A stretch of DNA of 64,000 nucleotides, from NCBI GenBank assembly GCA_021801025.1, contig JAJYYK010000004.1, forward strand, positions 1 through 64,000. Reading direction: 5' to 3'. Shown here piece after piece: positions 1,277-64,000 of this stretch. Made by a program: the position numbers and the translations under genes. The number at the start of each line of letters is the position of its first letter. Position 1 is the stretch's first letter. This DNA is from Pseudomonadota bacterium (lineage in GTDB: Bacteria > Pseudomonadota > Gammaproteobacteria > Burkholderiales > Sulfuriferulaceae). Below the pieces are notes generated by a model that worked only from the letters and a program-made list of their open reading frames with translations, ran no database searches and had not been told where the DNA came from.

Positions 1277-1331
1277 ATCCTGGAAACGGTAGTTGGATAA
1301 GTTGAAGAGAGCGGTCAACTGCCTTTATTCA
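1277..1331. repeat. Degenerate inverted-repeat element, second copy of the 37882-38007 family
   Basis: The left arm ATCCTGGAAACGGTAGTTG (1277-1295) matches 18 of 19 bases of the left end of the element at 37882. The right arm GAGCGGTCAACTGCC (1309-1323) is the reverse complement of a sequence that matches 37893-37907 at 14 of 15 bases. The ends therefore face each other over about 13 bases, as in a collapsed miniature inverted-repeat element. No coding content. Confidence 0.6.
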
Positions 1332-1379
1332 GGGTAATGCGGAGCAATCGCAATTTTCTGATGCATTCCAGATAGCGCG

Positions 1380-23479: not shown

Positions 23480-24505
23480 ATGACAAATTTTCCACGATTA
23501 CTCAACCGTCTGCTTGAACAGCACTCTCTCGAATATGCCGAGATGCTGGCGCTGATGCACGCAATCATGTCGGGCGAACTCACGCCCGCACAAATCGCTG
23601 CGATATTGATTGCGTTACGCGCCAAGGGCGAAACCATGACTGAAATTGCTGCAGCAGCACAGGTGATGCGCAGCTTGTCGACCAAAGTGCCTCTGGATGA
23701 CTTGCCTGACCTTGTGGACACTTGTGGCACAGGCGGAGACGGAACACACACATTTAACATTTCGACCGCCTCGGCATTCGTCGCCGCTGCGGCAGGCGTA
23801 AAGATTGCCAAACATGGGGGTCGTTCCGTGTCTTCGACTTCCGGCAGTGCGGACGTACTGGAATCGGTAGGAATTAATATCCACCTCACGCCTGAACAAG
23901 TAGGTCAATGCGTGCGTCAGGCAGGCATTGGTTTCATGTTCGCACCCAACCATCACAGCGCCATGAAATATGCTGCGCCGGTACGTAAAGAGCTCGGTGT
24001 ACAAACATTGTTCAACATCCTTGGCCCGCTCACCAATCCCACCGGCGCACGTCAGCAAGTCATTGGCGTGTACCACCCCTCGCTGACCTCACGCATTGCC
24101 TATGCTTTGCAACAACTGGGCAGTTGCCATGCCCTTGTGGTACATGGTGCGGATGGCCTGGATGAACTCAGCATCAGCGGTGAAAGTTATGTCGCCGAAC
24201 TTAAATCGGATCAGGTACTGGAATACCGCATTACGCCTGAACAATTTGGTTTGCAACGGTCTGGTTTGGCTGGCCTGCAAGTGAACGGCATTGAAGAGGC
24301 CAAGCAACTATTTCGTGCTGCACTCACCAATGAGCACCGTGCTGCCAGCGACATTGTGGCACTGAACGCGGGTGCCGCGATTTACGTTTCGGGTATCGTG
24401 GACCACCTGGCCGAGGGCGTTCATTTGGCAAAGCACCAGATTGAATCCGGTGCAGCCTGGGGGAAACTTGAACAACTGACCCAACTTAGCCGTGACTTTG
24501 CATAA
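23480..24505 (+). CDS. trpD: Anthranilate phosphoribosyltransferase TrpD
   Basis: Transfers phosphoribosyl from PRPP to anthranilate, second step of tryptophan synthesis. 341 residues, full length. An N-terminal helical domain (EMLALMHAIMSGELTPAQIA) precedes the PRPP-binding loop DTCGTGGDGTHTFNIST near residues 75-92, then KHGGRSVSSTSGSADVLE and NILGPLTNPTGARQQVIGVY. Shares an operon with trpG and trpC. The stop lies 26 bp before the chosen trpC start. Confidence 0.97.
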   Translation: MTNFPRLLNRLLEQHSLEYAEMLALMHAIMSGELTPAQIAAILIALRAKGETMTEIAAAAQVMRSLSTKVPLDDLPDLVDTCGTGGDGTHTFNISTASAFVAAAAGVKIAKHGGRSVSSTSGSADVLESVGINIHLTPEQVGQCVRQAGIGFMFAPNHHSAMKYAAPVRKELGVQTLFNILGPLTNPTGARQQVIGVYHPSLTSRIAYALQQLGSCHALVVHGADGLDELSISGESYVAELKSDQVLEYRITPEQFGLQRSGLAGLQVNGIEEAKQLFRAALTNEHRAASDIVALNAGAAIYVSGIVDHLAEGVHLAKHQIESGAAWGKLEQLTQLSRDFA

Positions 24506-37232: not shown

Positions 37233-37874
37233 TTGTTTGAATCTGCTTGCCGCGCGGCATTTATACGCTTCGCGGCAATTAACCCTTCCCCAAAAACCGA
37301 ATTGCTGTATACCAGCCATTTTGAGTTATTGATCGCTGTCATGCTGTCTGCACAAGCTACAGACAAAAGTGTTAATCTGGCTACGCGTGAACTATTTCGT
37401 CTCGCGCCCACCCCCGAAACCATGCTGACCTTGGGTTTGAATGGTATAGAATCTCATATACAGCGGATTGGTTTATTCAAAACCAAAGCGCGTCATATTC
37501 TGGCGACCTGCCAACAACTGATCAGCCTGCATCACAGCGCAGTTCCTTCTCAACGCTCTGCACTCGAAGCATTGCCAGGTGTGGGGCGAAAAACAGCCAA
37601 TGTCGTACTCAACACCGCTTTTAACCAACCGGTCATGGCGGTTGACACCCATATTTTTCGTGTCGCCAATCGAACAGGTATGGGACCAGGAAAAAATGTC
37701 AACCAGGTCGAGCACGCGCTGATGAAAATCATCCCAAAAGAATACCTTCAACATGCTCATCACTGGCTGATTCTGCATGGCCGCTACACTTGCACGGCAC
37801 GCAAACCGCGATGCGAAACCTGTTTAATCGCCGATTTATGTGAATGGCCAAACAAGGTCATTCCAGTAAAATAA
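37233..37874 (+). CDS. nth: Endonuclease III (DNA glycosylase/AP lyase)
   Basis: Removes oxidised pyrimidines in base excision repair. 213 residues. TELLYTSHFELLIAVMLSAQ and ATDKSVNLATRELF at the N terminus; helix-hairpin-helix with catalytic Lys in LPGVGRKTANVVLNTAF; catalytic Asp in AVDTHIFRVANRTG; [4Fe-4S] cluster Cys pattern C-x6-C-x2-C-x5-C in CTARKPRCETCLIADLC. The best start is TTG at 37233, with AAGGA 8 nt upstream, giving the family's usual length. The inverted-repeat element begins 8 bp after its stop. Confidence 0.96.
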   Translation: MFESACRAAFIRFAAINPSPKTELLYTSHFELLIAVMLSAQATDKSVNLATRELFRLAPTPETMLTLGLNGIESHIQRIGLFKTKARHILATCQQLISLHHSAVPSQRSALEALPGVGRKTANVVLNTAFNQPVMAVDTHIFRVANRTGMGPGKNVNQVEHALMKIIPKEYLQHAHHWLILHGRYTCTARKPRCETCLIADLCEWPNKVIPVK

Positions 37875-37881
37875 ACGCATG

Positions 37882-38007
37882 ATTCTGGAAACGGTAGTTG
37901 ACCGCTCATCTGACAAGGTAATATTATGCGATTAAACAATATCCACATGATTTCACTGTTCACCCGATTGCTGAATACACGACGCATTGAATTACCGTTT
38001 CCAGAAT
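37882..38007. repeat. 126-bp inverted-repeat element overlapping the FIST gene start
   Basis: Left end ATTCTGGAAACGGTAGTTG (37882-37900); right end ATTACCGTTTCCAGAAT (37991-38007), whose reverse complement matches the left end over the first 15 bases and 16 of 17 overall. The interior (about 90 bp) is AT-rich and has no gene. A related copy is at 1277-1331. No clear target-site duplication flanks it. It fits a MITE or a mobile palindromic element; the right end supplies the first two bases of the ATG of the next gene. Confidence 0.7.
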
Positions 38008-39088
38008 GATTGCTACCGGTTTAGCCACAGGGAAAACAGCAGATCCGGCCCTCGCCGCGCAAGCGGTGACACAAGCCATGTCGCGTTTGAATGTTTCTCA
38101 TGCCACCAGCGTATTGTTATTTTTAAGCGATGCGTTCGCCCGTGATCCGCGTCCTGCATTACTGGCCGCATCACGTCAGAGCCAATGCATGCAAGTCACT
38201 GGTTGCAGCGCCACTGGAATTTTTACTGAGGAAACATGGGTGCTGGATGCCCCTGCCGCTGCCGCAATGGTGTTTTCCGACCCACAAAAATTAGTCTCTT
38301 CACATGCCAGCAACGACTTGTTATTGACCTTGGCCGCGCCCGGCGCCATCCAAAAACTGGGGATGAGTGCGCCCGGTCAACGCTTTGGCGGTATTTCAGG
38401 TAATGACACCGGATATGGGTCCTGTAAAGTTTGGCAAAATGGAAAAGTCTGTGGAGCAGGGCACAGTGAAATGCGCATAGAAGCTTGTACAGGAAGAGTG
38501 GGTGTCTCACATGGGATCAGGGCACTCACGCCTCCCGCCGCGATTACTGAAATTCACGGCCATGAACTGATCAGTTTAAATGGGAAACCTGCGTTACATA
38601 CCCTGCTGCGCGAACTGCCACTGGAAGCCCGCGAATATGACCACATCCCCTTACACCGCATCATGGCCGCAGAAATTCAGGGGGAACCCGAGAATGCCAT
38701 TACAGAAGGCCGCTACCGCCTAATTTCCATCATTGCTACTCATTCCGAAACAGCCTCCGTCACGCTGTCCTCCCAACTGCCTTTGGGGGCACGCCTGTTT
38801 TGGGCATTGCGCCAACCTTTGACCGCAGAGTCGAGCATGCGCACAGCCATCAACCAAGTCAGCAGCCAATTGGCACACCCCCCCAGTTTTGGCATTATGG
38901 TGAATTCTTCCGGTCGAGGGCCCGGCTTTTACAATGGGGATGATCGTGACTTATGCATCATGAAAGAATGCCATCCCAATATGCCTTTTATTGGGTTCTA
39001 TGGCAACGGGGAAATTACTTGTATCGACAACATCCACCAACTGCTCGATTACAGTTGTGTTTTTGGTTTGTTTCATTACGATACATAA
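38006..39088 (+). CDS. FIST-domain sensory protein
   Basis: FIST domains are predicted small-ligand (possibly amino-acid) sensors. The 360-residue protein has an N-terminal FIST_N part (AVTQAMSRLNVSHATSVLLF; CMQVTGCSATGIFTEETWV) and a C-terminal FIST_C part (about 200-350; MVNSSGRGPGFYNGDDRD and GFYGNGEITCID). It is a stand-alone protein without kinase, GGDEF or receptor domain. The ATG at 38006 lies on the last bases of the inverted-repeat element and has no clear ribosome site. A later start is possible, but FIST homology begins within the first 20 residues. Convergent with the nuo operon. Confidence 0.85.
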   Translation: MIATGLATGKTADPALAAQAVTQAMSRLNVSHATSVLLFLSDAFARDPRPALLAASRQSQCMQVTGCSATGIFTEETWVLDAPAAAAMVFSDPQKLVSSHASNDLLLTLAAPGAIQKLGMSAPGQRFGGISGNDTGYGSCKVWQNGKVCGAGHSEMRIEACTGRVGVSHGIRALTPPAAITEIHGHELISLNGKPALHTLLRELPLEAREYDHIPLHRIMAAEIQGEPENAITEGRYRLISIIATHSETASVTLSSQLPLGARLFWALRQPLTAESSMRTAINQVSSQLAHPPSFGIMVNSSGRGPGFYNGDDRDLCIMKECHPNMPFIGFYGNGEITCIDNIHQLLDYSCVFGLFHYDT

Positions 39089-62358: not shown

Positions 62359-64000
62359 CTACACACCAGCGGCAGGTGTCGCGGTCGGTGCAGCATTGGG
62401 TGGCGTGGTGCCGCTTGATGAAACCGAAGGTGTGCCGAGATTAACGGGTTTGGGAAGACGGGGTGGCAAACCGGACATGATGTCTTTGATTTGATCCGCA
62501 TCAATGGTTTCCCATTCCAGCAAAGCATGGGTCATGGCCTCCACTTTGTCGCGATTGTCTTCCAACAATTTACGCGCCAATGCATATTGTTCATCAATAA
62601 TGCGACGAATTTCAACATCCACCCTTTGCATGGTGGCTTCGGACACGCTTTTATGGGTGGTCACGCTACGTCCCAAAAATACCTCGCCCTCATTTTCGCC
62701 ATAGACCATTGGACCCAAAGCAGGTGACATTCCCCACTGCGTCACCATGCGACGCGCCATCTCGGTGGCACGTTCAAAATCGTTCGATGCCCCAGTCGTC
62801 ATGTGGTTCATGAATATTTCTTCAGCAATTCGCCCGCCAAACAACACCGAAATATTTTGCAACAACTGGGCACGATCCATGCTGTAACGGTCTTCTGTAG
62901 GCAGTTGCATGGTTAACCCCAGTGCGCGCCCGCGCGGAATAATGGTAACCTTGTGTACCGGATCGGTTTTGTCCAGCAGATAAGCCACCACGGCATGCCC
63001 CGATTCGTGATACGCCGTATTACGACGCTCCTCCTCAGGCATGACCATGCCCTTGCGCTCACTGCCCATCATAATCTTGTCTTTAGCGCGTTCAAAGTCA
63101 TCCATATCGACCAGACGCTTATTACCTCGCGCTGCAAACAGGGCCGCCTCATTCACCAAATTGGCAAGATCCGCACCTGAAAAACCCGGCGTTCCTCTGG
63201 CCAAAATATCCGCACGCACATCCGTTCCCATAGGGATTTTACGCATATGGACCAGCAAAATTTGCTCGCGGCCACGTATATCGGGCAAAGAAACGACCAC
63301 CTGACGATCAAAACGACCAGGGCGCAATAAAGCGGGATCAAGCACATCAGGCCGATTTGTGGCCGCAATCACGATCACGCCGGCAGAGCCTTCAAAACCA
63401 TCCATTTCGACGAGCAATTGATTCAATGTTTGCTCACGCTCATCATTACCACCACCCATACCGGCGCCACGCTGCCGACCCACCGCATCAATTTCGTCAA
63501 TGAAAATAATACAGGGCGCATGCTTTTTAGCCTGCTCAAACATATCGCGCACCCGCGCCGCACCCACACCGACAAACATTTCGACAAAATCAGAACCGGA
63601 AATACTAAAAAAGGGAACTTTTGCTTCGCCGGCAATGGCCTTGGCCAATAAAGTCTTACCGGTTCCAGGACTACCTACCATCAATACACCGCGCGGTACG
63701 CGTCCACCCAGTTTTTGAAATTTTGCTGGTTCACGCAGAAAATCAACCAGTTCAGCCACTTCTTCTTTGGCTTCATCGCAACCCGCCACATCCGCAAAAG
63801 TAATTTGGTTGGTCGATTCATCGAGCATACGCGCTTTACTTTTACCAAACGAAAAAGCACCCCCTTTACCGCCCCCCTGCATCTGGCGCATAAAAAACAC
63901 CCACACGCCGATCAACAACAACATGGGAAACCATGAAATGAAAATATTCATCAGGAAAGAGGGCTCTTCCTCAGGACGTGCCTGAACTGCCACACCACCT
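62359..64000 (-). CDS. ftsH: ATP-dependent zinc metalloprotease FtsH (5' end outside window)
   Basis: Membrane-bound AAA+ protease that degrades damaged membrane proteins and regulators such as LpxC and sigma-32 in E. coli. About 546 residues are visible; roughly the first 95, with helix 1 and the periplasmic domain, lie beyond the edge. Visible order: helix 2 ([20 protein letters not shown]); Walker [19 protein letters not shown]; pore motif [17 protein letters not shown]; Walker [17 protein letters not shown]; second region of homology [20 protein letters not shown]; zinc site [12 protein letters not shown]; Pro/Thr/Ala-rich C terminus. The GTG at 63993 is an internal Val codon and not a start. 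Confidence 0.98.

Follow-up and report, generated by a model that had tools for sequence, protein, structure and literature searches.

A MITE insertion whose target duplication coincides with the start codon of a FIST gene, in a family with a putative structured RNA core

The inverted repeat between the nth gene and a FIST-domain gene in the DNA analysed here (the window, a stretch of 64,000 nucleotides) is a genuine, mobile member of a MITE family. We put the probability at about 85% that this MITE was inserted into the start of the FIST gene, at the five bases ATGAT, and that duplication of this target kept the start codon, and we regard this as the best full explanation of the locus. The window insertion is an ordinary MITE insertion whose target duplication coincides with a start codon, and its local meaning is that of a clean example in which an insertion hits a start codon and its own target duplication restores it. 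Added interest comes from the putative RNA core of the family, which was found outside the window. The positions of the features are collected in Table 1.

Scanning of the window located inverted arms of the sequence CTGGAAACGGTA at 37885-37896 (+) and 37993-38004 (-), in agreement with the terminal inverted repeats described in the initial annotation, and another CTGGAAACGGTA at 1280-1291 (+). With one mismatch or fewer, this 12-mer has five matches in the window against an expected 0.26, and none of 100 shuffles reached five. Two more one-mismatch copies, at 23858-23869 and 63657-63668 (CTGGAATCGGTA and CTGGAACCGGTA), possibly occur by chance. In a repeat search, the window element had arms of 21 nt that were 90% complementary and spaced 90 nt apart. 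The limits first given for it, 37882-38007, correctly placed an element here but were slightly off; they are corrected to 37884-38005 (122 bp), with direct copies of ATGAT bordering both ends. The left copy lies 4 bp downstream of the nth stop, a TAA that ends at 37874. The outermost bases of the window element are T and A, and those of most family members and of the copy in G004, another genome of the genus, are C and G. The related collapsed copy that had been reported near 1277-1331 corresponds to positions 1279-1332 (54 bp), where no duplication could be recognised.

Table 1. Features of the window element and its surroundings
Feature	Position	Strand	Remark
Left 5-bp target site duplication, ATGAT	37879..37883	.	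Identical to 38006-38010; NTNAN form as in family
MITE, short 122-bp form; B end left, A end right; structured-RNA hairpin missing	37884..38005	.	RNA models: no match in window
Left terminal inverted repeat; outer base T, family C	37884..37900	+	
Right terminal inverted repeat; outer base A, family G	37989..38005	-	
Promoter-like pair TTGACC-18-TATTAT within element	37898..37927	+	Consensus match only; hexamers identical in G004; not enriched in family
Right target duplication copy, ATGAT; first 3 bases are the FIST start codon	38006..38010	.	
FIST-domain gene, 360 aa	38006..39088	+	PF08495 2.6e-9, PF10442 2e-9
nth (endonuclease III-like), TTG start as listed, stop TAA 37872-37874	37233..37874	+	PF00730 9.3e-22
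54-bp minimal copy of the same family (A end and B end), decayed, no clear duplication	1279..1332	.	

The family has the ends CCTRGAAACGGYAGTTG, a usual length of about 234 bp and 5-bp target duplications of the form NTNAN. A genome-wide search for copies, which the initial annotation had proposed, gave 20 matches to the 16-mer CTGGAAACGGTAGTTG with up to two mismatches (2.38 Mb, 20 contigs) compared with 2 for the reversed pattern, and some of the 20 are probably chance matches. With up to one mismatch, CTRGAAACGGYAGTTG was matched in 8 of the 18 genomes of the genus. Among 299 genomes of the order, 16 had the exact 17-mer, as did 9 among 383 from the class; these tallies include the source genome each time and, being based on one exact 17-mer, miss variant ends. 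A scan of named genomes gave at least 120 stretches with a match, and most of the 80 titles listed among them were Proteobacteria. Occurrence is patchy; the highest number of end matches in a single genome was 25 (G098). The earlier view of the repeat as a MITE or repeat family is borne out by these copies elsewhere in the genome, in the genus and in many other bacteria.

Target duplications were scored in 94 of 101 inverted end pairs, namely, those spanning up to 400 bp (7 longer pairs were excluded and nested pairs included). In 52 of these pairs, an exact 5-bp direct repeat lay one base beyond the 16-mer; the other 42 had no exact repeat there. The second base is T and the fourth is A in all 52 exact duplications. 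Other offsets or lengths were found in no more than 3 of the 94 pairs, with the exception of the nested 3-bp core (64/94). Lengths of 226-240 bp were found for 71 of 104 distinct elements, and smaller groups lie at 86-192 and 253-340 bp; the smallest form seen, of 44 bp, holds little beyond both ends and has TTTAA on each side (L206, G185:C5:17039-17082). One full-length element (L176, G013:C1:1497500-1499900) is split by an IS of ~1.5 kb with ends, judged by eye, near CACCCATTTGGTAACGGTGTCTGG. A plasmid search with the window locus returned seven records, all matching the nth part only. One full-length copy matched nothing in the plasmid search, and another had a single match (67.9%, Polaromonas); one full-length copy used in a phage search gave no match. 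The 17-mer was also found in 18 stretches of viral contigs, none with a second end at fewer than 3 mismatches, and these were judged to be chance matches. Family members are short, have inverted ends and no transposase gene, carry a duplication of fixed length and, at the nth-FIST locus, show occupied and empty sites in relatives, as is characteristic of MITEs. A parent transposon with the same ends was not found in the loci searched; the searches were partial, which limits the naming of the enzyme and not the case for mobility.

We compared the nth-FIST locus across the 18 genomes of the genus, among them the source genome of the window (G000), by searching each for FIST. The gene was matched in 17, with 16 long matches and a fragment only in G003, and had no match in G002; the locus set excludes ten weaker matches, which fall in other FIST-like frames. 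FIST lies downstream of nth at all 16 loci. The element is present at two of them (G000 and G004) and absent from 14, and these are the empty sites in related strains for which the initial annotation had suggested looking. A lack of other copies, or conservation of the sequence at this locus in distant relatives, had been named there as counting against a mobile repeat; neither was found, as there are further copies and most congeneric loci are without the element.

The same comparison does not uphold the proposal that the element supplies the start codon of FIST. Of the 14 uninterrupted loci, 8 have a FIST gene that starts with ATGAT. Apart from G005, for which the position of the start is uncertain, all of them (13) have the FIST start between 4 bases inside and 24 bases past the nth stop. 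The nth-FIST gap with the element is 131 bp, and subtraction of the element and one target copy (131 - 122 - 5) leaves 4 bp, within the range of the uninterrupted loci. Because of this residual gap and the eight relatives that start with ATGAT, we infer that the gene started with ATGAT before the insertion, which then duplicated these bases. Judged from these loci, the FIST ATG at 38006 is host DNA, a part of the duplicated target, and not a contribution of the element. The G004 element occupies the same site as that of G000, with 107 of 122 bases identical. The two genomes share an intact right target copy, and the left one, ATGAT in G000, has decayed to ACGTT in G004. At the nth-FIST junction of G015 (L306), which has no element, a short stretch starting with ATGATTGCC seems to be tandemly repeated just before the FIST start; the start region there looks to have been duplicated without an element.

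In the explanation we favour, a non-autonomous MITE entered the first five bases of FIST in the common ancestor of G000 and G004. A transposase acting in trans presumably cut the target with a 5-bp stagger, and ATGAT is seen duplicated at the two ends of the element. The right copy preserved FIST's own start codon in frame, and the left copy was placed just past the nth stop. FIST would now have to rely either on read-through RNA or on some signal within the element.

The mobilising enzyme was sought among PF13701 transposases in 46 genomes (18, 12 and 16 in three sets), of which 24 had matches (7, 9 and 8). We examined 59 loci (10, 30 and 19, the second set being 30 of 53 matches). No autonomous element with the ends of the MITE was present among the 59, and no inverted end pair surrounded a transposase; the IS with the same terminal repeats envisaged in the initial annotation was not found among these loci. 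Many of the loci are fragments without visible ends, and those that could be delimited carry other ends. No end pair longer than 450 bp had a common duplication in a locus set that overlaps the 94 pairs and includes repeated copies. The lone ends in L086, L123, L125, L127, L128 and L158 have loose second ends (3-4 mismatches) at distances of 0.7-3.8 kb, but these were rejected, having no common duplication. L176 was also rejected as a parent: the 1774 bp between its exact ends comprise a full element plus an IS whose 430-aa transposase matches DDE_Tnp_1 weakly (22.2 bits, cut-off 23). A single MITE end with one mismatch lies near an IS1380-type transposase fragment in L254 (G294:C53). In L373 (G683:C42), an exact single MITE end preceded by TTTAA is joined to an IS1380-type transposase fragment; this locus may be a parent remnant or two adjacent remnants and decides nothing.

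Copies from other genomes have related but different ends (CCTAGAAACCTCAGTTG, CCTTGATTCCCCAGTTG, CCTGGATTCGGTAGTTG and CCTAGAATCCTCAGTTG), and both these and the family ends resemble the ISEcp1 IRL, CCTAGATTCTACGT. In the sections of PMC7864471 considered, ISEcp1 generates 5-bp repeats, and of the four given there (TCATA, TGGGT, GATAA and ATTTC) none fits NTNAN. A 475-aa IS in G083, with ends CCCAAATTTYCCATTAGC and with one copy scoring 273.9 bits against NF033539 (cut-off 180), has the duplications TTCAT, CTCAT, TTGAA, ATGAA and TTCAA, which are of NTNAN form at 5 of 5 loci; a sixth locus, with a 479-aa variant, gave no duplication. In other IS1380-type elements that could be delimited, the duplications are 4 bp long: CTAG (L224, L235 and L357), TTAA (L234) and TTAG (L356). 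Besides the five copies of the 475-aa IS1380-family IS, the G083 genome (3.4 Mb) has an open frame of ~526 aa that matches PF13701 weakly and occurs more than 15 times. Ends identical to those of the MITE were not found on any IS1380 element in the 59 loci, the likeness being to the ISEcp1 IRL only, and for this reason we do not class the MITE as IS1380-derived. The sequences leave about even odds that an enzyme of IS1380 type mobilised the family.

As to the consequences for FIST, the reading we slightly favour is that the insertion had no effect that matters, with FIST translated from the retained ATG as before and the element decaying. Its ends and stem drift (107/122 bases identical to G004), and the comparison of G000 with G004 gave a dN of 0.054, a dS of 0.447 and a dN/dS of 0.12 for FIST, and a dN/dS of 0.15 for nth. 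These values indicate that FIST is still constrained after the insertion. Several uninterrupted relatives, on inspection, likewise have no obvious SD-like sequence ahead of FIST. However, the close nth-FIST junction that is kept in most relatives is broken here, and with a spacing of 131 bp, translational coupling to nth is therefore hardly possible any more.

A more elaborate alternative, which we consider unlikely, makes the element a regulatory leader for FIST. A stem in the read-through RNA would hold the AUG, translation of an 18-codon leader ORF starting in the left ATGAT copy would open the stem, and an internal promoter would provide a second RNA with a free AUG. In the window sequence, the predicted read-through stem pairs the A and U of the FIST AUG and has a z of -2.99, with 1 of 200 shuffles equally stable. 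The promoter-like pair TTGACC-18-TATTAT, whose hexamers are identical in G004, belongs to a class with 3 sites in 501 bases compared with 0.7 in shuffles, counted as consensus matches only. However, the ACGTT of G004 removes the start of the leader ORF, and the same stretch folds there no better than shuffles (z -0.36, 60/200 equally stable); control by a leader peptide or start-codon hairpin was rejected on these grounds. A promoter as a feature of the MITE family was likewise ruled out: among the 98 of 104 members in which TTGACC was found, a second hexamer (at least 4/6 matching, 16-18 bases away) occurred in 10, compared with 7% in shuffles. The insertion may have reset the promoter and leader of FIST, as suggested in the initial annotation: the close junction is broken and the promoter-like pair is kept in G004, but that pair is no family feature and the stem is not conserved there. 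A regulatory role as promoter or leader is possible from the sequence and is not indicated by conservation. A chance or host-encoded palindrome without any mobile element, to which the single window site with a perfect duplication and the failure to find a parent transposon could be credited, is very improbable given presence and absence at one locus among congeners, a multi-copy family with duplications, and the requirement for loss in 14 lineages rather than one gain.

In addition to MITE ends, the full-length elements, when all are turned the same way, share a long predicted hairpin beside the A end. The 71 full-length elements were thinned by ungapped comparison to an alignment of 53 (A5). 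For these, RNAalifold gave -64.4 kcal/mol for the A-to-B strand and -23.8 for its complement, with a mean of about -0.1 in 50 column shuffles; because the structure is chosen per strand in these energies, the count of G-T versus A-C is the fairer strand test. Double changes were present in 38 of 39 hairpin pairs. The hairpin cells were paired in 93.3%, compared with 67.5% in 500 shuffles, none of which reached this value, and with 29-42% in slid structures. Double-change cells numbered 464 versus 135 in the control. With a structure predicted without G-U, and with the same 22 pairs read on both strands, the A-to-B strand had 84 G-T and 6 A-C. The 28 pairs chosen for the reverse strand had a smaller difference (91 G-T versus 66 A-C). 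This asymmetry points to selection on the hairpin as RNA of the A-to-B strand, because palindrome correction driven by replication should prefer no strand. We rejected the possibility that a palindrome at the DNA level had caused the compensatory changes, as it does not explain the 84 versus 6.

Searches with Rfam in 18 sources placed nothing over threshold on the hairpin. The sub-threshold scores there were 24.4 of 79 for MIR5534, 35 of 268 for MIR918 and 19.4 of 31.5 for cobalamin. Over the gathering score, and within ~200 bases of the RNA core but not on it, were narK RNA and the cobalamin riboswitch (L391 1321-1390; L389 1209-1371).

The RNA model R1 had eight matches in the source genome (E <= 0.001), with the top one at G000:C10:70471-70600 (2e-20). 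It also matched in 51 of 150 relatives, in some cases weakly. The window copy was matched by neither R1 nor the core model R2, and its hairpin is gone. By inspection, all that it retains is the two ends, the spacer and some of the sequence that follows the hairpin, and it most likely lost the hairpin by deletion. A comparable loss at the hairpin base is seen in further short copies, for example L073. In one Comamonadaceae genome, three contigs have similar copies without the hairpin (L067, L130 and L135), all with the junction GGACGCGCT, which suggests that hairpin-less forms are able to move. Since these related copies share the same deletion junction on three contigs, the core appears to be dispensable in cis for movement.

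The weaker R1 matches agree position for position with the core GCAAGGCGCGA..GGA.GAGCAACGC in alignment despite having different ends, such as GAACCTATTTCAGTAG (L349), GGAACCTCTCTCAACAAT (L354) and TAGGGCCTGTTCACACTA (L353). Further different ends around the RNA core, in families beyond the order of the window, were seen among L326-L404 (TAGGGCCTGTT, TTAGAGCGTTTTTCGACC, CTCATCTCAAAAATACTC and AGTGTCCTGCCTC). R2 was built from 52 sequences, 45 from elements with IS1380-like ends and 7 others. As these 7 are cores found by R1, the two models are not independent, and the E-values of both are rough. R2 matched in 43 of 396 genomes of the phylum (E <= 1e-5). Among 60 R1 and R2 loci, 5 of which repeat copies already in the set, a raw count of 48 have inverted ends (at least 15/18) within 140-345 bp, and 12 have no such ends. 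The 48 comprise 24 sorted as IS1380-like, one more (L338) added on inspection and 23 with other ends, the last including two repeats (L379 of L349 and L388 of L353). The sequence GGGCCTGT is present in 7 of the 23 other-ended loci. In the core, C-GA-C-GA-C stands opposite G-GA-G-GA-G, and in one class AA stands opposite TT at one of the two places; the opposed GA/GA reads as tandem G-A mismatches, with presumed G-A pairing.

We consider it fairly probable that a wider set of MITEs shares one structured RNA core (GGCAAGGCGCGA[C/G]GA[C/G] - hairpin - GGA[G/C]GAGCAACGCnGCC, with apparent tandem G-A mismatches, or A-U pairs in their place in one class) between ends of unrelated transposase types. 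The core would be a selfish RNA module that several unrelated transposition systems carry across Pseudomonadota and that is selected as RNA. MITEs are usually regarded as empty passengers defined by their ends. If a strand-specific RNA fold is indeed conserved across differently ended MITEs, many bacterial MITEs would be RNA elements that borrow transposases.

Among the papers listed by text searches of the open-licence literature with the end and core sequences, none was on MITEs or bacterial repeats, as judged by title or start of abstract. Among known systems, the IS1380 family and ISEcp1, in the sections of PMC7864471 considered, resemble the family here in ends that start with CCTNGA and in 5-bp target duplications; the MITE differs in having no transposase gene and in the inner part of its ends, and the ISEcp1 repeats given there are not NTNAN. 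The IS1380-family IS of G083 shares the NTNAN duplications, whereas several IS1380-type elements delimited here differ from the MITE family in their 4-bp duplications. REPs and the GTAG and CGTC palindromes, as treated in the part of PMC3733652 used here, are likewise palindromic, extragenic and repeated, but REPs are 20-40 bp long and RAYT-linked, whereas the present family is mostly ~234 bp long with 5-bp duplications.

Mobile repeats with a single covarying stem are a kind already known from PMC11109978, where, in the portion consulted, 250 mobile or repeat sequence candidates are counted. MRSC-65-2 and other such candidates are multi-copy and selfish-looking, with a single long covarying stem, as in the elements described here. 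Of the 250, the family is set apart from MRSC-65-2 alone: that candidate has a conserved UYCCGG repeat, and no TYCCGG occurs on either strand of the one element checked (L083 2356-2590). The closest likeness in build is to MITEAba12 (PMC6382973) and to NEMIS, ERIC and RUP (PMC3733652), which, in the passages used, are about 0.1-0.3 kb long, with inverted ends and no transposase gene, and share the target duplications, many copies and gene-adjacent positions. According to the same part of PMC6382973, MITEAba12 has a coresident parent, ISAba12, whereas none was found for the family here. The full-length copies described here differ from known MITEs such as MITEAba12, as portrayed in those passages, in their hairpin with strong compensatory changes.
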